Positions 2,013 through 46,939 of a stretch of 47,835 nucleotides of DNA are shown here, piece by piece. Location: NCBI GenBank assembly GCA_005787685.1, contig SYAC01000018.1, positions 1 through 47,835 on the forward strand. Direction: 5' to 3'. This stretch comes from Planctomycetia bacterium. Lineage in GTDB: Bacteria > Planctomycetota > Phycisphaerae > Phycisphaerales > SM1A02. Below the pieces are notes generated by a model. It was not told the DNA's origin and did not search any database. It worked only from the letters and a program-made list of their open reading frames with translations. Position 1 is the first letter of the stretch; the number at the start of each line of letters is the position of its first letter. Made by a program: the position numbers and the translations under genes.

Positions 2013-3140
2013 ATGGCTAAGGCATACACCCCAGGTCTGCGCGTCAGCGCCCGTTGCATCTACCGAACTCGTCGCGCTTTGCCCACCACGGGCACCGTGC
2101 AAGTGGCCCTAGGCGACCTCGTGCAAGGCGCAACCGTGATTGCCTCCACGCATTTGGAGGGGGATGTCACGCCTATGAAAGTGGCCAGCCTACTTGCATG
2201 TCCTCCTAAAGATATGCCGGCATTGATGTTGAAGAAAGTTGGCGAAGCCGTGCTCGCGGGCGAGGTGATGGCGCGCAGCAAGGGAATGTTTGGCTTGATG
2301 AAGACCGAAGTCAAAGCCGCCGCCACCGGAACCATTGATAGCGTGAGTGATTCCAGCGGCATGGTTTTTGTGCGCGGTGCTCCGCAGCCTATTGAAATTA
2401 TGGCGCATGTGCCTGGGCGCGTTGTTGAAGTGTTGGCCGGCGAAGGCGCGGTGATAGAAACCACCGCCGCGCTTGTGCAAGGAATTTTTGGCGTGGGCGG
2501 CGAGGCGCGCGGAGCGATTGCGCTTGCGTGCCGCGCGGCGAACGAGGAGTTGCACCAAGATTTAATTCGCCCCGAGATGAAAGGATGCGTTGTGATCGGC
2601 GGCGCGCGCATGACGGCAGCCGCGATTACAAAAGCAAAATCACTTGGCGTGGCGGCGATTGTTTCGGGCGGCATGGATGATGCCGACCTGCGTGATTTTC
2701 TTGGCTACGACTTGGGCGTCGCTATTACGGGTAGCGAAAAATGTGGCCTAACGTTGATTTTGACCGAAGGCTTTGGTGAGATTGCCATGGCGCGGCGTAC
2801 ATTCGATTTGCTCGCGGAGCATCAAGGGCGCCAGTGCAGCGTGAATGGCGCAACGCAAATTCGCGCTGGTGTCATGCGGCCAGAAATTGTTGTTCCGCTT
2901 GATGACGCGGGGGGCCTGGTAAGCGAAAACACGCGGGATTCTGGCGGAGAATTGGCCGCGGGTGTTGCGGTGCGCATTATTCGCGATCCGTATTTTGGCT
3001 TGCGGGGAACAGTTGCCGCGTTACCCGAAATGCCAGCGTTGCTTGACTCTGGCGCCAAGGCGCGCGTGCTTGAAGTTGCGCTGGAGCGCGGTGGAACCGT
3101 GACCGTGCCGCGCGCCAATGTTGAGCGCATAGCGACATAA
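2013..3140 (+). CDS. Conserved protein of unknown function, barrel-sandwich plus C-terminal KOW-like segment; first gene of the DUF6754 operon
   Basis: A 375-residue protein with no signal peptide or membrane segment, so probably cytoplasmic. Residues 50-120 (VGEAVLAGEVMARSKGMFG, then VKAAATGTIDSVSDSSG) look like the lipoyl/biotinyl-like barrel-sandwich hybrid seen in RnfC-type proteins, but no lysine in a canonical lipoylation or biotinylation motif is evident. A glycine-rich middle (GVGGEARG, VVIGGARMTAAAI, IVSGGMDDADL) and a strongly motif-like stretch (VNGATQIRAGVMRPEIVVP) follow. The last 65 residues (IRDPYFGLRGTVAALP to VPRANVERI) resemble a KOW-like small barrel. It precedes the DUF6754 gene by 18 nt. 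A cytoplasmic partner of the downstream membrane proteins is plausible; the function is unknown. Confidence 0.75.
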   Translation: MAKAYTPGLRVSARCIYRTRRALPTTGTVQVALGDLVQGATVIASTHLEGDVTPMKVASLLACPPKDMPALMLKKVGEAVLAGEVMARSKGMFGLMKTEVKAAATGTIDSVSDSSGMVFVRGAPQPIEIMAHVPGRVVEVLAGEGAVIETTAALVQGIFGVGGEARGAIALACRAANEELHQDLIRPEMKGCVVIGGARMTAAAITKAKSLGVAAIVSGGMDDADLRDFLGYDLGVAITGSEKCGLTLILTEGFGEIAMARRTFDLLAEHQGRQCSVNGATQIRAGVMRPEIVVPLDDAGGLVSENTRDSGGELAAGVAVRIIRDPYFGLRGTVAALPEMPALLDSGAKARVLEVALERGGTVTVPRANVERIAT

Positions 3141-3146
3141 TTTAGT

Positions 3147-3152
3147 TATGTT
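3147..3152 (+). promoter_or_regulatory. Leaderless-type -10 hexamer TATGTT
   Basis: TATGTT ends 6 nt before the ATG at 3159. This suggests an internal promoter, so that gene two of the operon can also be transcribed separately. Confidence 0.4.
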
Positions 3153-3158
3153 ACCTAC

Positions 3159-4295
3159 ATGCGCATTACGCACATGATCCCACGCTGGATCGCCACAAGT
3201 CCGTCGTGCAAGCTCGTCGCCATCTTTGTATTGATGTTCGCATGTTGCACAAATGTACTTGCAGTTGAAACAAATAAAGGCGTGATCGAAGCAAGTGCGC
3301 AAGATATTGCTGCGCAAAATACAATCGCACACCCCCACGTTGCTACTGAAAATATATTTACGAAAGATGTTCTCGCCCACAACGAGCCAGCGCAAGACAC
3401 CACCGCGTCCTTGATTGAGCCCGTCAACGCAGTTGCGGGCGCATCGCCAGCAGTCGCGAATGCCACTCCAACAACCACACCCGTGCGCCCGTGGTTTAAC
3501 AGTAAAAAGACCGCGCTTTTTCTTTGGATTGTGTTTATTGGCGCGGCCGTGACCGTGTCAGTGTGGCTGGCTCATAGCGGCCGGCCAATTCGTATTCGCC
3601 GCATCGCCGCGCTGGAAGCCGTGGACAACGCCGTGGGACGCGCCACGGAAATGGGTCGATCCATTTTGTTCGTGCCAGGCATTCAAGATATGGACAACAT
3701 TCAAACGGTTGCGGGCTTGACCATGCTTGGCCGCGTTGCAAAGACCGCCGCCGAATACGACGCGACTATTGAAGTGCCAACATGCCGATCGCTTGTCATG
3801 GAGGCCGCGCGCGACACGGTGCGCGCTAGTTATCTTTCAGTGGGCCGCGCTGATGGTTTTTCAATCGACCGTATTACCTACATCACTGACGATCAATTTG
3901 GATATGTCGCGCATGTGGTTGGATCCATGGTGCGCGAGAAGCCCGCGACCTGTTTTTACATGGGCTACTTCGCCGCCGAGAGTTTGATTTTTTCCGAAAC
4001 TGGCAACGCCATCGGCGCAATTCAAATAGCCGGTACCGCGGAAAGCAGCCAACTTCCGTTCTTTGTGGCGGCCTGCGACTACACATTGATCGGCGAGGAA
4101 TTTTTCGCGGCCAGCGCGTATCTAAGTGGCGAACCCGCGCAACTTGGAACGCTGCGCGGACAAGACATTGGCAAATTTGCCGTGGGAGTATTCATCACAT
4201 TGGGGGCGCTCGCGGCCACCATTCTTGTCATCGCGCCAAATGCCCCCATCATCAGCGCATTGCTGGGCGGTTTGCAGAAAGTGCTGGGCGGATAA
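3159..4295 (+). CDS. DUF6754 family membrane protein
   Basis: A 378-residue protein. Residues 1-35 are a signal-like segment, residues 36-112 a low-complexity Ala/Thr-rich linker, 118-138 a membrane helix, 139-335 a soluble domain and 339-360 a second helix. The soluble domain carries the features I recognise as DUF6754: RATEMGRSILFVPG, LTMLGRVAKTAAEY, ITDDQFGYVAHVVGSM, FYMGYFAAESLIFSETGN and CDYTLIGEEFFAASAYLS. By topology this domain faces the cytoplasm. Next to it are a cytoplasmic barrel protein upstream and three membrane proteins downstream, spaced 4 nt or overlapping, which suggests one membrane complex. Neither substrate nor reaction is known to me. The family assignment is from memory of its sequence; the topology is inferred. 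Confidence 0.75.
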   Translation: MRITHMIPRWIATSPSCKLVAIFVLMFACCTNVLAVETNKGVIEASAQDIAAQNTIAHPHVATENIFTKDVLAHNEPAQDTTASLIEPVNAVAGASPAVANATPTTTPVRPWFNSKKTALFLWIVFIGAAVTVSVWLAHSGRPIRIRRIAALEAVDNAVGRATEMGRSILFVPGIQDMDNIQTVAGLTMLGRVAKTAAEYDATIEVPTCRSLVMEAARDTVRASYLSVGRADGFSIDRITYITDDQFGYVAHVVGSMVREKPATCFYMGYFAAESLIFSETGNAIGAIQIAGTAESSQLPFFVAACDYTLIGEEFFAASAYLSGEPAQLGTLRGQDIGKFAVGVFITLGALAATILVIAPNAPIISALLGGLQKVLGG

Positions 4296-4298
4296 CCC

Positions 4299-4997
4299 AT
4301 GAAGCGCATCATTCCAATGTGGATCGCAATCATTGGCGGCTTCGCCATGATGCTGAGTTCATTTGTTCCACTGGCTGAAAGCGCGGGCGAAGTGTTCGCC
4401 GATATATTCAATGTAGTCGCCGCGATTGCGTTTGTGTTGGGCGCCGGAAGCCTAGCCAAACAACATTTGGAAAAACTCAGCAGGCGTGAAGCGGGGTGGG
4501 GTTATAGCGTTGTCACGCTTGGAAGTTTTATAGTGACGCTGTTTATTGGCATGTTCAAGATTGGCGTTCATCCCAATCCAAATTTTCCGCAGGCGGCCTA
4601 CAGCGGCAGCAATGATGCTGAGGGTTCGGCCTGGAGTTGGATTTATGAATACATGCTCACGCCCCTCACGAGCACCATGTTTGCATTGCTGGCATTCTTT
4701 GTGGCCAGCGCCGCGTTTCGTGCGTTTCGCGCCAAGAATACCGAGGCTATTTTGCTTTTGGTCACGGCGTTCATTATGTTGCTTGGCCGCACCTTCGCAG
4801 GCGTTGTCCTGACGGGTTGGTTTCCAGAATGGGCGTCGGGTTTGCGTTTAGAAAATTTCAGCATCTATATCATGCAGGTTTTCAACACCGCGGGCAACCG
4901 CGCAATCATGATTGGAATCGCGCTTGGTGTCGCAGCCACGGGTTTGAGAATTCTATTTGGTATTGATCGCAGTTGGCTTGGTGGAGGTGAAGCGTGA
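4299..4997 (+). CDS. Polytopic membrane protein of the DUF6754 operon
   Basis: A 232-residue protein with about six hydrophobic segments (roughly 5-25, 33-52, 68-86, 118-137, 146-165 and 199-218). A polar loop with GSNDAEGSAWSWIYEYM lies between the third and fourth. It starts 4 nt after the DUF6754 gene, and its stop overlaps the next start in GTGA, so it is probably translated in a coupled fashion. I do not recognise a characterised family. The dense packing with four other envelope genes suggests a subunit of a shared inner-membrane complex. Confidence 0.65.
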   Translation: MKRIIPMWIAIIGGFAMMLSSFVPLAESAGEVFADIFNVVAAIAFVLGAGSLAKQHLEKLSRREAGWGYSVVTLGSFIVTLFIGMFKIGVHPNPNFPQAAYSGSNDAEGSAWSWIYEYMLTPLTSTMFALLAFFVASAAFRAFRAKNTEAILLLVTAFIMLLGRTFAGVVLTGWFPEWASGLRLENFSIYIMQVFNTAGNRAIMIGIALGVAATGLRILFGIDRSWLGGGEA

Positions 4998-5917
4998 GCG
5001 CCGCCAATTTCAACAACACAAACGCTTCGGCGCTTCCGTGGTTTGAGCGGCTTGATCGCATCGACCGCCGCTGGATTTTCCTGCTGATGTTCCTTGCGGT
5101 ATCGGGACCAATTTTGTGGATTGGCGTGACTGGAAAAACGTTGCCCGAGGCGCCAACATTGGCCGCGCGCGCGGTCTTTCAAGAGATCGATCAACTGCCT
5201 GCGCGCAGTTTGGTGTTGATTTCAATTGATTTCGACCCCACCAGCGCCGGCGAGTTACAACCCATGGCTACCAGCTTGGTGCGCCAATGCGCCGCCAAAA
5301 ATCTTCGCATGGTGTTCATTGCATTGTGGCCGCTGGGGAGTCAAGTAGCGCAGCAAACTATTCAAGAAGTGATTCGTGATGACTATCCCGCGTTGAAAGA
5401 GGGCGATGATTTTGTGAACATGGGCTTTCAAGCCGGCAACGAGGCCGTGATGAAATTGCTGCTGACGGATTTTGCCAAGGCGTTTCCAAAAGATTCGCGC
5501 GGCGAGGCCGCCAGCAACATTCCAATATTGAATAGCGTGAAGAGTGTCACGGATTTTCCTCTGCTCATTAGCGTCAGCGCCGGCTATCCTGGCAGCAAGG
5601 AGTGGGTGCAATATGTCATCAGCGCCCACAACGAGAAAATGAATTTTGTCAGCGGGTGCACCGGCGTGAACGCGCCGCAGTTGTATCCATATTTTCCACA
5701 GCAAATCGCGGGATTGTTGGGCGCCATCAAGGGCGCGGCAGAATATGAATCCATGGTCAACTCATCGCTTGCGGTGGAAGGCGTGGTGACGCCGCCAAAA
5801 TATTCGCAGGCGCAGCGGCGCATGGGCCCGCAATTGGTGGCGCACTTGTTCATGGTGGGATTGATCATTGTGGGCAACATCAATTTCTTTGCGCGCAAGC
5901 GCAGAGGTGCCGCATGA
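4994..5917 (+). CDS. Bitopic membrane protein with alpha/beta soluble domain, DUF6754 operon
   Basis: A 307-residue protein starting with GTG inside a GTGA overlap. Residues 29-46 and about 279-298 are membrane helices, flanking a 230-residue soluble domain. The domain opens with a strand and acidic turn (RSLVLISIDFDPTSAGELQP), a Rossmann-like beginning, and ends with GLLGAIKGAAEYES just before the second helix. If the N-terminus (positive RLDRIDRR) is inside, the domain is periplasmic and the C-terminal RKRR tail is cytoplasmic. I recall similar proteins near DUF6754 genes in other phyla but cannot confirm this here. No catalytic motif is recognised and the function is unknown. Confidence 0.65.
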   Translation: MSAANFNNTNASALPWFERLDRIDRRWIFLLMFLAVSGPILWIGVTGKTLPEAPTLAARAVFQEIDQLPARSLVLISIDFDPTSAGELQPMATSLVRQCAAKNLRMVFIALWPLGSQVAQQTIQEVIRDDYPALKEGDDFVNMGFQAGNEAVMKLLLTDFAKAFPKDSRGEAASNIPILNSVKSVTDFPLLISVSAGYPGSKEWVQYVISAHNEKMNFVSGCTGVNAPQLYPYFPQQIAGLLGAIKGAAEYESMVNSSLAVEGVVTPPKYSQAQRRMGPQLVAHLFMVGLIIVGNINFFARKRRGAA

Positions 5918-6942
5918 CGCGCCAAGGCAAGACATGGTTAGTCATTGGCGCGGTCTTTGTAACGCTGCTTGTGGTGCGCGGCATGATCGGTCAAGGTCTT
6001 GGCCGCGTGTATGTCAAGCGCACGGATGTCACCGTGAACATGCCCGATGCGGTGGATATGAATACCGCGGCGGCATCATCAAGCACAACGACAGTTGCGC
6101 CAACTACCTCATCAAATGGCAAACCGCTTTCGTGGCAAGAGTGGAAACAAGTTGCGCCGTTGGCATTTGCCGCCGCGCAAAAAGCCAATCCCGCGCAAAC
6201 CGAAATAACGCTTTCTTGGCCGCGCACTATTGGCTTATGGCTTGCCGCATTCTTCACGCTCGCCATATTCAGTTTCTTGTACGCGGACAATTCTTTCTAC
6301 AAAATCGCCGAATCATTGGTGGTTGGAGTCAGCGCGGCGTACTGGGGCGTGATTGGTTTTTGGGACACGCTGGTTCCAAAAATGTTTGGAGCGCTCACGC
6401 CAGGGCTTGTGAAAAGCATGGTGCAGCCATCGCTGGTTTCGCCTGAACCGTTGCAGCAGATCAGCATGGCATTGGCACTTATTCTTAGCGTGATGATGTT
6501 GTGGCGTCTTCTGCCGCGTGGCGGTTGGATCAGTGCGTGGCCGCTTGCGTTTATTGTTGGCGTGACAGCTGGACTGAAAATAGTCAGTCATGTTGAAAGC
6601 GATTTAATGGCGCAGACCGCGGTCACCATGAAGCCGCTCGTTGTTCGCGTTACGGACGCCTCGGGCGCAACCAATATGTGGGATAGTTGGTGGGCAAGCG
6701 TCGCCAATGTGTTGCTGGTGGTTGGCGTCATTTGTTGCTTGACATATTTTTTCTTCAGCGTGCAGCACAAGGGCGTGGTTGGCGGCGCCGCGCGCGTGGG
6801 TATTTGGTATCTCATGATTACCTTTGGCGCGGCGTTTGGCTTCACGGTCATGGGCCGTATTGCGTTGTTGGCGGCACGTATTGAATTCTTATTTGATGAT
6901 TGGCTTTGGTTGATCGATCCAAATCATTTACGAGGTTTGTAA
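5914..6942 (+). CDS. Polytopic membrane protein, last gene of the DUF6754 operon
   Basis: A 342-residue protein that overlaps the previous gene in ATGA. It has an N-terminal helix (about 6-25), a Ser/Thr-rich segment (50-65), and then about six or seven hydrophobic segments between 100 and 330, including FFTLAIFSFLYA and VANVLLVVGVICCLTYFFF. An 'SWQEW' segment precedes the second helix. No family is recognised. The operon ends here: the stop codon at 6940-6942 is followed within 12 nt by the TTGACA repeat array, and I see no terminator hairpin in between. Confidence 0.65.
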   Translation: MTRQGKTWLVIGAVFVTLLVVRGMIGQGLGRVYVKRTDVTVNMPDAVDMNTAAASSSTTTVAPTTSSNGKPLSWQEWKQVAPLAFAAAQKANPAQTEITLSWPRTIGLWLAAFFTLAIFSFLYADNSFYKIAESLVVGVSAAYWGVIGFWDTLVPKMFGALTPGLVKSMVQPSLVSPEPLQQISMALALILSVMMLWRLLPRGGWISAWPLAFIVGVTAGLKIVSHVESDLMAQTAVTMKPLVVRVTDASGATNMWDSWWASVANVLLVVGVICCLTYFFFSVQHKGVVGGAARVGIWYLMITFGAAFGFTVMGRIALLAARIEFLFDDWLWLIDPNHLRGL

Positions 6943-6953
6943 GACAAAGTGTC

Positions 6954-7107
6954 TTGACAAGAGATTGACAAGGGGTCTTGACAAGAGATTGACAAGAGAT
7001 TGACAAGGGAGTTCTTGACAAGCGATTGACAAGAGATTGACAAGGGGTCTTGACAAGAGATTGACAAGGGAGTTCTTGACAAGAGATTGACAAGGGGTCT
7101 TGACAAG
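6954..7107. repeat. Array of 13 TTGACAAG units with three unit lengths
   Basis: TTGACAAG occurs at 6954, 6965, 6978, 6989, 7000, 7015, 7026, 7037, 7050, 7061, 7076, 7087 and 7100. The spacing is 11 (TTGACAAGAGA or TTGACAAGCGA), 13 (TTGACAAGGGGTC) or 15 nt (TTGACAAGGGAGTTC). The core equals the sigma70 -35 consensus. No stop-free conserved reading frame suggests coding. The array lies between the membrane operon and the exported protein at 7283. Confidence 0.9.
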
Positions 7108-7282
7108 AAAATAAATTTTCAAATTTTTCCAGAAAAAAGGTGGCAAATTAAAAATTGGCCTTGGTTGTGTCATACAAGAGGACCACGCGGAAATAAATCC
7201 GTTATTGCGTTCTTGAAAGTGTTTCGGGAAGCAATTTTCAGAAGTCGGTTTATCAAACAATCCATAGAGAAGGAGTAGGGAA
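7108..7282. other. Non-coding spacer downstream of the TTGACA array
   Basis: AT-rich near the array, then mixed. It ends with the Shine-Dalgarno sequence AGAAGGAG (about 7267-7274) for the gene at 7283. I see no gene, RNA or convincing -10 box at a fixed distance from the last TTGACA. Confidence 0.5.
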
Positions 7283-8011
7283 ATGTCAGCAAGCAAGAAA
7301 TGGTTCGCCTTCATGGCGACAATGTTGTTCTGCGCGAACAGCGCGTTGGCGGATATGGTGGCCGCGTGGAATTTTAATTCACTCACAGGCACCGTACCGG
7401 CATCGCTGGCGGCGAATGTTGGTCAAGGCGGGTTATCACTTGCGGAATTCACGGGCGGTTTAAGTGGTTTGGTCGGAACGGATATCAACGCCACCAATGG
7501 CGATGTCGCCGGGCAATCTTTAACGGTGACAGGCATGACGCAAAATACAAAATCTATTCTCATCGAGGTCGACACGCGTGGCAAAAAGCAGTTGCAATTC
7601 AGTATGGCAGCGCGGCGTAGTTCCAGCGGCTTTGCAGGCCTGCTCGTACAAGTGTGGGACGGTCAAATTTGGAGGGATGTTGGCAATGTTTCCGCAAACA
7701 CCTCGCAGTGGCAACTCTACGCAATGGATTTGTCCAGCTACACATTCGCCGACAACAGTTCGCTTCGTATGCGAATTCAATTATCTGGTGCGACAAGTTC
7801 TAGTGGCAATGTGCGGATAGACAATCTTCGTGTTGATGGAACTCTCATTCCTGCACCAGGCGCAATTGCCGCAGTGGCTGTCGCCGCCGCTTCGGGCGCA
7901 CGTCGTGGCGCTCGAACAAATGACACAACCAATTCCAAGCCCGCAATCGCAACTCCAGTGGTCAAACCGATGGTGGAACCAGCGCCAACATCAGTACGCG
8001 CGAAAAAGTGA
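7283..8011 (+). CDS. Exported protein with PEP-CTERM-like PAPG segment
   Basis: A 242-residue protein with a strong AGGAG ribosome binding site. Residues 1-24 form a signal peptide ending at ANSALA. Residues 25-185 are a beta-rich domain starting VAAWNFNSLTG, as in planctomycete proteins with lectin/jelly-roll-like folds. A segment PAPGAIAAVAVAAASGARRG (about 192-211) resembles the PxPG-hydrophobic-RR sorting tail of PEP-CTERM-like proteins. Unusually, about 30 more residues rich in Thr, Pro and Lys follow, ending SVRAKK. Its likely location is the outer surface; its function is unknown. Its expression may depend on the upstream TTGACA array. Confidence 0.7.
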   Translation: MSASKKWFAFMATMLFCANSALADMVAAWNFNSLTGTVPASLAANVGQGGLSLAEFTGGLSGLVGTDINATNGDVAGQSLTVTGMTQNTKSILIEVDTRGKKQLQFSMAARRSSSGFAGLLVQVWDGQIWRDVGNVSANTSQWQLYAMDLSSYTFADNSSLRMRIQLSGATSSSGNVRIDNLRVDGTLIPAPGAIAAVAVAAASGARRGARTNDTTNSKPAIATPVVKPMVEPAPTSVRAKK

Positions 8012-45802: not shown

Positions 45803-46939
45803 ATGATGAACCAAACTGTCGTTGATTCTTCGTTGATCAAGGCTTGGTTGGAAGTTTTGGGCGCAATTCACCCTCTTGTAGTGCATTTCCCAATTGCGTT
45901 GGCCATAGTTGCAACGCTTGCCATGTCGTGGCACTGGATTATGCGCCACGAAGGTTTTGGTGAATTCGCATTTCATTGCACATGGATCGCGGCCCTGACG
46001 AGCGTGGTCGTAGCTGCAAGCGGTTGGTTCTTTGCCGATCCGAAAAATCTCAGCCAGGAATTATTTCTGCACCGCTGGTTTGGCATTACAAGTTTAGTGG
46101 GATTAGTTGCGCTGGCGTTTATGACTTCTCTTGTCCGTAGCGATTCCTGGCCAAGCTTGTTAAAAATTTCACGTCTATTATCCCTTGGGATTGCAATTTG
46201 CATAGGTGTTACCGCGCATTTTGGTGGTGACATGGTGTGGGGAGAAGGGCAAGTCACAACTCCGCTATCAAAGGCTTGGTCAGTCACCTGGGTATCCGAG
46301 GATGAAAACAAGGGTGTTACGCCAACAGCGCCAACTGAGCCAACAGCGCCAACTGAGCCAACAGCGCCAACTGAGCCAACAGCGCCAACAGCGCCAACTG
46401 AGCCAACAGCGCCAACCGAGCCAACAGCGCCAACCGAGCAAGCATCCAAGCCAATTGTAAATGCATTCACATTTGATGTGCTCAACTTGAGCATCACGCT
46501 TGCAATGTCAGCTACGCAGGCTACGCCGCCAACTTCCACACCAACTACGCCGCCAACTTCCACACCAACTACGCCGCCAACTTCCACACCAACTACGCCG
46601 CCAGCCATTCCAAAAGATCTGGAGTACAACAAAAATATTCTTCCAATATTGGAAGCCCGCTGTTGGGACTGTCACGGCAAAGGCGCTGCCAAAGGTGGAG
46701 TGGCCTTTGATCACGTGGAAGAACTCATCTTGCAAAAACCAATGGTAAAAGGCAAGACACTGCCAATTATTCTTGTCGGCAAGCCAGCATTGAGCTCCAT
46801 GGTGAAAGCCATTCGCAAACCCAAGAGCGCCAAAGGCCACATGCCCCCAAAGGGTGAGCGACTGACGCCAGAGCAAATTGCATTGATTGAAGCTTGGATT
46901 GAACAAGGCGCCAAAGTGGTGAATCCGCCCAAGTCTTAG
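45803..46939 (+). CDS. DUF2231 membrane domain fused to planctomycete-type cytochrome c domain
   Basis: A 378-residue protein. Residues 15-165 hold four hydrophobic helices with AIHPLVVHFPIALAIVATLA, the DUF2231 signature. Residues 174-212 are TAPTEP repeats and about 241-266 TPPTSTPT repeats, forming a flexible periplasmic linker. Residues 275-378 are a small cytochrome c domain of the PSCyt type: heme-binding CWDCHGKGAAKGG, and Met in KGHMPPKGERLTPEQIALIEAWIEQGA. Electron transfer at the inner membrane is likely; the partner is unknown. Its stop overlaps the convergent TauE/SafE stop by 4 nt. Confidence 0.88.
   Translation: MMNQTVVDSSLIKAWLEVLGAIHPLVVHFPIALAIVATLAMSWHWIMRHEGFGEFAFHCTWIAALTSVVVAASGWFFADPKNLSQELFLHRWFGITSLVGLVALAFMTSLVRSDSWPSLLKISRLLSLGIAICIGVTAHFGGDMVWGEGQVTTPLSKAWSVTWVSEDENKGVTPTAPTEPTAPTEPTAPTEPTAPTAPTEPTAPTEPTAPTEQASKPIVNAFTFDVLNLSITLAMSATQATPPTSTPTTPPTSTPTTPPTSTPTTPPAIPKDLEYNKNILPILEARCWDCHGKGAAKGGVAFDHVEELILQKPMVKGKTLPIILVGKPALSSMVKAIRKPKSAKGHMPPKGERLTPEQIALIEAWIEQGAKVVNPPKS
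46322..46440 (+). repeat. 18-bp tandem coding repeats (TAPTEP)
   Basis: About six units of ACAGCGCCAACTGAGCCA or its ACCGAG variant, with one shortened ACAGCGCCA unit. They encode the TAPTEP linker inside the DUF2231-cytochrome protein. Near-identical DNA units suggest recent expansion by slippage or recombination. Confidence 0.85.
46523..46594 (+). repeat. 24-bp tandem coding repeats (TPPTSTPT)
   Basis: Three identical 24-bp units beginning ACGCCGCCAACTTCC encode TPPTSTPT inside the linker just before the heme domain. Confidence 0.85.

Follow-up and report, generated by a model that had tools for sequence, protein, structure and literature searches.

The operon and its setting

The window, by which we mean the whole 47,835-nucleotide stretch that was analysed, carries five contiguous genes on the forward strand between positions 2013 and 6942. 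G1 (2013–3140) encodes a soluble protein of 375 residues with no transmembrane helix by hydropathy, and G2 (3159–4295) a DUF6754 protein of 378 residues. G3 (4299–4997; 232 residues) and G5 (5914–6942; 342 residues) encode polytopic membrane proteins, each with six helices predicted from hydropathy. Between them lies G4 (4994–5917; 307 residues), the product of which has two helices flanking an α/β domain according to hydropathy and an AlphaFold2 model. The ORF coordinates bear out the head-to-tail arrangement described in a first-pass annotation of this DNA, including an 18-nt gap after G1 and two 4-nt overlaps at the distal end; the gap between G2 and G3 is 3 nt, not 4 nt as given there. Three motifs quoted in the same description were located in the translations of G1, G2 and G4, and the assignment of G3, G4 and G5 as membrane proteins agrees with their 6, 2 and 6 hydrophobic stretches. 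The start of G1 at position 2013 is preferred over an in-frame GTG at 1983 because it agrees with the majority N-terminus of the family alignment, M-A-x-A-Y-T-P-G-L.

A locus from an uncultured bacterium (L072) contains all five genes with protein identities of 77–91% and pN/pS values of 0.14–0.27. These values, together with a gene order that recurs across phyla, indicate that the operon is more than a chance arrangement. Relatives occur in at least nine phyla, as judged by the names of the sequence records, and the earlier view that these genes are not orphans of one lineage holds. The operon in the window is truncated by the contig end; its other members are an ATPase of the MutL family and the small proteins C1 and C2.

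The soluble partner

A barrel-sandwich hybrid occupies part of the region from about residue 16 to 113 of G1 and the conserved central part carries the sequences GVAITG, TEGFG and GATQIRAGV. All Pfam matches of the protein itself are below threshold (Biotin_lipoyl E = 0.0032, RnfC_N E = 0.019, KOW E = 0.098, Nitroreductase E = 0.18), the weak KOW match being to the C-terminal part. At E ≤ 0.1, 35 of 46 family members match Biotin_lipoyl and 24 of 46 match RnfC_N. A cytoplasmic protein with barrel-sandwich and KOW-like parts, as first proposed, is consistent with the lack of a transmembrane helix and with these sub-threshold matches. Profile comparison with hhalign aligns G1 to NqrA (P = 2.3e-6) and to RnfC (P = 1.8e-4) over the barrel-sandwich part only, and the alignments stop at about residue 113. 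G1 was considered as a full NqrA or RnfC and this was ruled out, since no other part aligns.

The membrane subunits

G2 is a full-length member of PF20539 (375.4 bits, cut-off 27, E = 1.4e-112, profile positions 4–249 of 257), a family whose name gives no function. Hydropathy identifies three hydrophobic stretches, the first of which is signal-like. The order is therefore a signal-like N-terminus, a helix, a six-strand α/β domain at about residues 150–325 and a further helix; the AlphaFold2 model has a mean pLDDT of 83.5. Counts of lysine and arginine alone predict that the α/β domain is cytoplasmic, in keeping with the original description of a DUF6754 protein with one cytoplasmic domain between two helices. 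G4 consists of a helix, a six-strand α/β domain and a second helix with conserved His284 and Asn295 (mean pLDDT 94.3), and the same type of count predicts its domain to lie outside the cytoplasm. In both models several highly conserved residues are placed at or directly past the ends of strands, a pattern like that of a ligand pocket. Counting against this pattern are the highly conserved Arg147 and Gly160–Glu164 of G2 and Glu87, Pro90 and Glu252 of G4, all of which are away from strand ends.

Comparison of the models with the PDB using Foldseek gave no solved fold at E ≤ 0.001, the best values being 0.0097 for G2 and 0.0018 for G4; TM-scores by query length were 0.15–0.30 among the 50 matches listed. 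The Moco carrier protein 2iz7 matches G2 with a probability of 0.99 and a TM-score of 0.49 by target, but the E-value is 0.033 and the match was not used. When G1, G2, G4 and MutL were searched against PDB sequences, no E-value was better than 0.059. The two structures that were predicted, those of G2 and G4, accordingly do not match a characterized system, in line with the lack of an assignable function in the first-pass annotation.

No Pfam or NCBIfam family matches G3, G4 or G5 above its cut-off, and for the window members of G3 and G5 there is no Pfam match at E ≤ 0.01. G3 and G5 each form a conserved family among the relatives, and comparison of their profiles gives P = 0.0099 over 56 columns. 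The shared helix, six-strand α/β domain and helix of G2 and G4 raised the prospect of homology and a first profile comparison aligned the two in register (P = 0.003). Broader alignments shift the match to a single helix (P = 0.0094); the proposal was dropped and no common descent is claimed.

The MutL ATPase

The MutL of this genome is encoded on a second contig (C50), the end of which overlaps the start of the window by 104 bases. The reading frame is of 652 residues and matches PF13941 over the entire profile (positions 1–450 of 450, 427.8 bits, cut-off 27), the match ending at residue 499. It falls below all three NCBIfam cut-offs, those of GlmL, Or-4 and glmL_fam; against the GlmL equivalog NF040745 the score is 235.6 bits where 475 are required. 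Among ORFs of at least 560 residues the phosphate-1 motif is present in 58 of 60 and the phosphate-2 motif in 60 of 60, and MutL, a member of the ASKHA (actin-fold) ATPases of the MutL/GlmL family, may with these motifs be active in ATP hydrolysis. MutL and G1 are fused in three Neomarinimicrobiota loci (L076, L080 and L098). A divergent fused MutL-G1 paralogue occurs elsewhere, as do divergent MutL-G1 pairs without adjoining G2–G5.

Locus organization and co-occurrence

The order across relatives is C2-C1-MutL-G1-(G2-G3-G4-G5)n. The four-gene block is unbroken in 101 of 119 relative loci and present in two or three copies in 19, whilst G1 adjoins MutL in 55 of the 119 and is fused to it in 3. 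In seven loci with a triple block, each of the 21 blocks has as its nearest relative, for all four genes, a block that holds its position in a different triple-block locus, and patristic distances of G2, G3, G4 and G5 correlate at 0.83–0.88 over 120 blocks. These comparisons indicate that G2-G3-G4-G5 has been inherited and duplicated as one unit, and that G1 with MutL forms a partner pair which accompanies the block and is sometimes a single fused protein. Five triple-block genomes were searched in full. Three have a single MutL match, one has two matches that jointly cover the profile once and one has an additional fused paralogue.

Genome-wide counts were made for G1, G2, G4, G5 and MutL, with G3 sought in the loci only. 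In 294 Planctomycetota genomes DUF6754 is found in 76, G4 in 77, G5 in 73, G1 in 71 and MutL in 80; all five coincide in 64, a nearly all-or-none distribution, for which the co-occurrence p-values take no account of phylogeny. That DUF6754 keeps company with its neighbours, on which the initial reading depended, is evident in the 76 genomes that have it, with G4 in 76, G5 in 72 and G1 in 68. The parts are retained even when dispersed; on the one contig of genome G024, DUF6754 and G1 are at about 0.29 Mb, MutL at 0.79 Mb, G5 at 2.30 Mb and G4 at 3.53 Mb. In genome G153 (99% complete) C1, MutL and G1 are present and DUF6754, G4 and G5 have no match. This genome, and the divergent MutL-G1 pairs that lack an adjoining block, suggest that MutL-G1 may have other partners. 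Three viral contigs matched the search pattern and none is a relative.

The recurrent flanking genes, in 21 neighbour clusters, vary by lineage and none names a substrate. Judged by eye, five loci (cluster c13) carry genes for solute-binding proteins and ABC transporters close to a block. The open-access papers searched mention neither DUF6754, PF20539 or PF13941 nor an operon of this kind in Planctomycetes and Zixibacteria.

A possible ATP-linked membrane machine

What might these proteins do together? That MutL and G1–G5 form one system is well supported, and the best reading is that a single pair, the MutL ATPase with G1 as its presumed adapter, serves one to three four-subunit inner-membrane cores. 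Co-occurrence and gene content support the proposal made at the outset, a putative inner-membrane complex of several subunits that has a partner in the cytoplasm. We tentatively suggest, at somewhat less than an even chance, that most parts of an ATP-linked machine of the inner membrane are specified by these five genes. MutL would bind and hydrolyse ATP on G1, which would dock on the cytoplasmic domain of G2; a change of shape might then travel by way of G3 and G5 as far as the outer domain of G4, and a solute, a lipid or a precursor of the envelope would in this way be transferred across the membrane or otherwise handled there. The MutL-G1 pair would act as an energizing module shared by the one to three cores. 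Gene order, co-occurrence, retention when dispersed, the MutL-G1 fusions, ATP-binding motifs, co-inheritance of the block, the MutL counts of the triple-block genomes, the conserved residues at strand ends of G2 and G4 and charge bias support the machine. Weighing against it are G153, the divergent MutL-G1 pairs that lack an adjoining block, neighbours that vary by lineage and the chaperone role given to MutL in an excerpt of PMC4682846. Our guess is that the machine serves transport or remodelling and not the repair of an enzyme.

Repair is nevertheless the substance of a serious rival, if an unlikely one, in which MutL-G1 is a reactivating chaperone whose client, the membrane-bound enzyme G2–G5, is repaired or given its cofactor, in the way that GlmL is said to serve B12-dependent glutamate mutase. 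The excerpt of PMC4682846 describes MutL as a chaperone involved in reactivation of that enzyme. The accessory ATPase of methylaspartate (glutamate) mutase, GlmL, and its relative in ornithine degradation, Or-4, belong to PF13941, the family that the present MutL matches over the full profile; most relatives of this MutL retain both phosphate-binding motifs. In a genome of the same phylum (G040, locus L169) MutL adjoins MutE and a B12-binding protein, and one fused paralogue has a sub-threshold match to EutA (E = 0.0036). Set against this, GlmL partners MutE and a B12-binding protein whereas the present MutL partners G1 and a membrane core, its scores are below the GlmL-type cut-offs, a search for MutE (PF06368) in the genome of the window, which is 91% complete, gave no match, and no Pfam family for B12 or a redox cofactor exceeds its cut-off in G1–G5, the Nitroreductase match of G1 included.

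A scaffold for the cell envelope or cell shape, with MutL as an actin-like organizer on the inner membrane, comparable to FtsA, MreB or PilM, and the core as its anchor, is distinctly less probable. One fused paralogue gives a sub-threshold FtsA match (E = 0.011) and the fused copy at L155 is followed directly by mraZ and by genes for a penicillin-binding transpeptidase and a Mur ligase. Of the fused-paralogue loci L155, L156, L157, L218, L219 and L220, only the first showed the mraZ neighbourhood among the neighbours scanned, and L157 is too short to judge; the idea that mraZ ties the system to cell division comes from this one locus and was set aside. DUF6754 is moreover absent from all 14 well-known control genomes, which argues that it is no general division component. 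PilM and GspL are actin-fold cytoplasmic proteins of the type IV pilus and type II secretion platforms that work with inner-membrane proteins. The MutL system would have the same combination. Inspection by eye of the 21 neighbour clusters, few of which were scanned with Pfam, revealed no gene for a pilin, a secretin or an assembly ATPase. A relative of Na+-NQR or RNF that works as a redox or ion pump, G1 taking the role of NqrA or RnfC, is highly improbable. G1 has in its N-terminal part the same kind of barrel-sandwich hybrid as those cytoplasmic subunits, which likewise lie next to membrane proteins, but the likeness ends with that domain. Pfam families of the Fe-S, flavin or NqrB/D/E type are not found above cut-off in G2–G5, and Pfam reveals neither a redox module nor a related membrane subunit.

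To return to the ATP-linked machine, a bolder form of it, which we consider doubtful, is a new class of ATP-driven machine present in at least nine phyla. An actin-fold ATPase, rather than one of the ABC, AAA or rotary type, and a barrel-sandwich adapter would energize one to three interchangeable cores, each with one α/β domain inside the inner membrane and another outside. If the machine is real, then roughly one in four of the Planctomycetota genomes sampled (76 of 294), and many other phyla, have a membrane system without an assigned function, in which an actin-fold ATPase of the chaperone type is employed on a membrane complex. DUF6754, G1 and MutL are all present in the cultured strain Thalassoglobus neptunius, which makes the question testable there.

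The five genes in the window

The first-pass annotation described a run of five genes at 2013-6942 on the + strand. This is borne out by the ORF coordinates, except that the gap after the second gene is 3 nt, not 4. We call the genes G1 (2013-3140), G2 (3159-4295), G3 (4299-4997), G4 (4994-5917) and G5 (5914-6942). G2 is a complete DUF6754 protein. G1 lacks membrane helices, both G3 and G5 are polytopic, and G2 and G4 each carry a soluble domain flanked by two helices. All five are found in L072, a locus from an uncultured bacterium, with 77-91% identity and pN/pS of 0.14-0.27, values indicating purifying selection.

Immediately 3′ of G5, at 6943-7108, TTGACAAG-type units are repeated in tandem with periods of 11, 24, 35 and 61. 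Beyond this repeat, 7283-8011 encodes a short protein of secreted type. Its C-terminal VPAPGA motif resembles a PEP-CTERM-type sorting signal; by eye, the protein is similar to an operon neighbour cluster of L032/L092, L072, L075 and L078. Short tandem repeats of 9 and 12/24 nt at 46320-46603, inside the protein encoded at 45803-46939, code for threonine-proline rich linkers.

A larger operon

Five family profiles were built and neighbours inspected at 119 loci: 40 from Planctomycetota and 79 named loci representing the best 80 of at least 566 relatives confirmed in a scan of genome contigs. The locus counts include at least one contig entered twice (L032 is L092). The commonest neighbour cluster, at 44 loci, is a MutL-family protein; 29 of the cluster's 45 members are encoded upstream in the same orientation. 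Once profiles for MutL and two small proteins, C1 and C2, were added, the gene order seen was C2-C1-MutL-G1-G2-G3-G4-G5. The G2-G3-G4-G5 run, the membrane core, is unbroken at 101 of 119 loci. Nine of the other 18 reach a contig end within the run (L058, L060, L068, L070, L084, L095, L106, L132 and L145), and in the remainder these genes are split or non-adjacent. G1 lies immediately 5′ of G2 at 66 of the 111 loci having room upstream; at the other 45, G1 and MutL are downstream, on the opposite strand, elsewhere or beyond view. MutL and G1 adjoin on the strand of the core at 55 loci and are fused at three with Neomarinimicrobiota record titles (L076, L080 and L098). C1 precedes MutL at 44 loci and C2 precedes C1 at 27. 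In a deltaproteobacterial record (L221:6405-9450) the MutL and G1 frames are broken into several pieces, reflecting either assembly errors or decay.

The window is contig C5 in its entirety (47,835 bases), and its genome (2.37 Mb, 65 contigs, 91% complete) contains a single MutL, which lies on contig C50 and is preceded there by C1 and C2. Reverse-complementing the 104 bases at the start of C50 gives the 104 bases with which the window begins. The most economical interpretation is that C50 continues into C5, which would place MutL and G1 on one strand, separated by an opposite-strand gene. That gene (3-1733, - strand) starts at 1733, encodes a protein that looks secreted and begins with a signal-like segment, and runs off the left end, presumably continuing on C50. 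About 2 kb also lies between MutL and G1 in G251, a genome of the same family; in L072 the two adjoin.

Distribution

Genome-wide counts of DUF6754, MutL, G1, G4 and G5 were made in 294 Planctomycetota genomes. DUF6754 occurs in 76, MutL in 80 over cut-off (86 at E ≤ 0.001), G1 in 71, G4 in 77 and G5 in 73; 64 genomes have all five and 86 have any one. Every one of the 76 DUF6754 genomes has G4. In twelve of them, between one and three of the remaining families are missing, all twelve being assemblies of at least 240 contigs. MutL is alone in seven genomes, G067 lacks DUF6754 only, and MutL with G1 only is found in two. One of these two, G153, is a real exception, since its assembly of about 40 contigs is 99% complete. 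In it C1, MutL and G1 stand in a row (L166:6463-10204), with no DUF6754, G4 or G5 match in the near-complete genome. Some members of family f30, for example G024 and G194, have the genes scattered yet retained; G194 matches Thalassoglobus neptunius in contigs and coordinates. Fisher p-values for co-occurrence, which ignore shared ancestry, range from 1e-47 to 2e-70. Distribution is patchy, because neither the 13 other sampled genomes from the window's order nor the seven from its class matched DUF6754, G1, G4 or G5, or had a MutL above the cut-off.

Going by depositors' record titles, groups represented among the named loci include Planctomycetota, Zixiibacteriota, Neomarinimicrobiota, Acidobacteriota, Gemmatimonadota, Riflebacteria, Caldithrix, Cloacimonadota and Fermentibacteraceae, along with a deltaproteobacterial record. 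Whole genomes were searched for 25 of the 79, 20 of them picked because MutL was not adjacent. MutL was found in all 25 at E ≤ 0.001 and in 24 over cut-off, the match being weak in G314 and in fragments in three other genomes. G1 was found in 24, with weak or divergent matches in G313 and G314. DUF6754 is absent from all 14 well-known control genomes.

Comparison establishes which genes are members of the system and makes a MutL-G1 pair likely.

Duplicated cores

Two G2-G5 blocks occur at 11 loci and three at eight. In the seven triple loci having enough of every gene, the nearest relative of each block among triple loci is the same-position block, for each of the four genes (21/21 blocks). 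Position pairing fails for some Planctomycetota blocks. Across the 45 blocks of multi-block loci, all four genes share one nearest block in 16; in the others they disagree among close candidates. Patristic distances of the four genes correlate at 0.83-0.88 (120 blocks). The four core proteins therefore duplicate and diverge together. Five of the eight triple-block genomes were searched for MutL: three have one, one has two pieces covering the profile once, and one has a second, fused paralogue. On these counts, one MutL-G1 pair for several cores is the usual state in triple-block loci.

Structure and topology of G2 and G4

AlphaFold2 models (mean pLDDT 83.5 for G2, 94.3 for G4) show a six-strand α/β domain in each; Foldseek found no match to either in the PDB at E ≤ 0.001. 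In folds of this type ligands bind at the strand ends. Several highly conserved residues are found at or shortly after these ends: G174, G269, F271, E274, G292, Q298, G312, E313 and E314 in G2 and D79, P82, G144, G197, G221 and T223 in G4. Others lie elsewhere (for example R147 and G160-E164 in G2; E87, P90 and E252 in G4).

Topology was judged from mean Lys plus Arg counts per 15 residues. For G2 these are 1.89 before the first helix (from the 28 of 92 rows with enough sequence) and 4.26 after, then 1.82 before and 0.74 after the last. For G4 they are 3.43 before and 1.47 after helix 1, and 2.33 before and 4.01 after helix 2. By these counts the domain of G2 is predicted to be inside and that of G4 outside.

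Possible function

No Pfam match over cut-off was obtained for the window genome's C1, C2, G3, G4 and G5, five of the eight families, and its G1 gave sub-threshold hits only. Of the remaining two families, one is a domain of unknown function; the other, a chaperone-type ATPase, occurs here in a new setting. A search of mainly open-access papers found no mention of DUF6754, PF20539 or PF13941 and no such operon. The window genome's MutL matches the whole PF13941 profile, is barely above the hydantoinase family cut-off and falls under those of GlmL, Or-4 and glmL_fam; by contrast, a MutL of G040 adjoins MutE and a B12-binding protein.

Among 60 MutL ORFs at least 560 aa long, 58 carry the phosphate-1 motif and all 60 carry phosphate-2, the two misses being a near variant and an ORF truncated by its contig. 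The MutL-G1 pair may energise or maintain the core, and we tentatively favour an ATP-driven membrane machine, at somewhat under even chances. A reactivating chaperone acting on a membrane enzyme is a less probable reading, and an envelope scaffold is unlikely. An NQR/RNF-like pump seems very improbable: G1 has only its barrel-sandwich part in common with NqrA and RnfC.

Some Planctomycetota, Zixiibacteriota and Cloacimonadota carry another, divergent fusion of MutL with G1, of 839-1007 aa at L155, L156, L218, L219 and L220 and shorter at L157. The fused paralogue at L155:6298-8817 has mraZ, a penicillin-binding transpeptidase and a Mur ligase just downstream (L155:9012-15001). L158:6391-9332 and L159:1995-5017 hold a second kind of MutL paired with a divergent G1, G2-G5 not being alongside.
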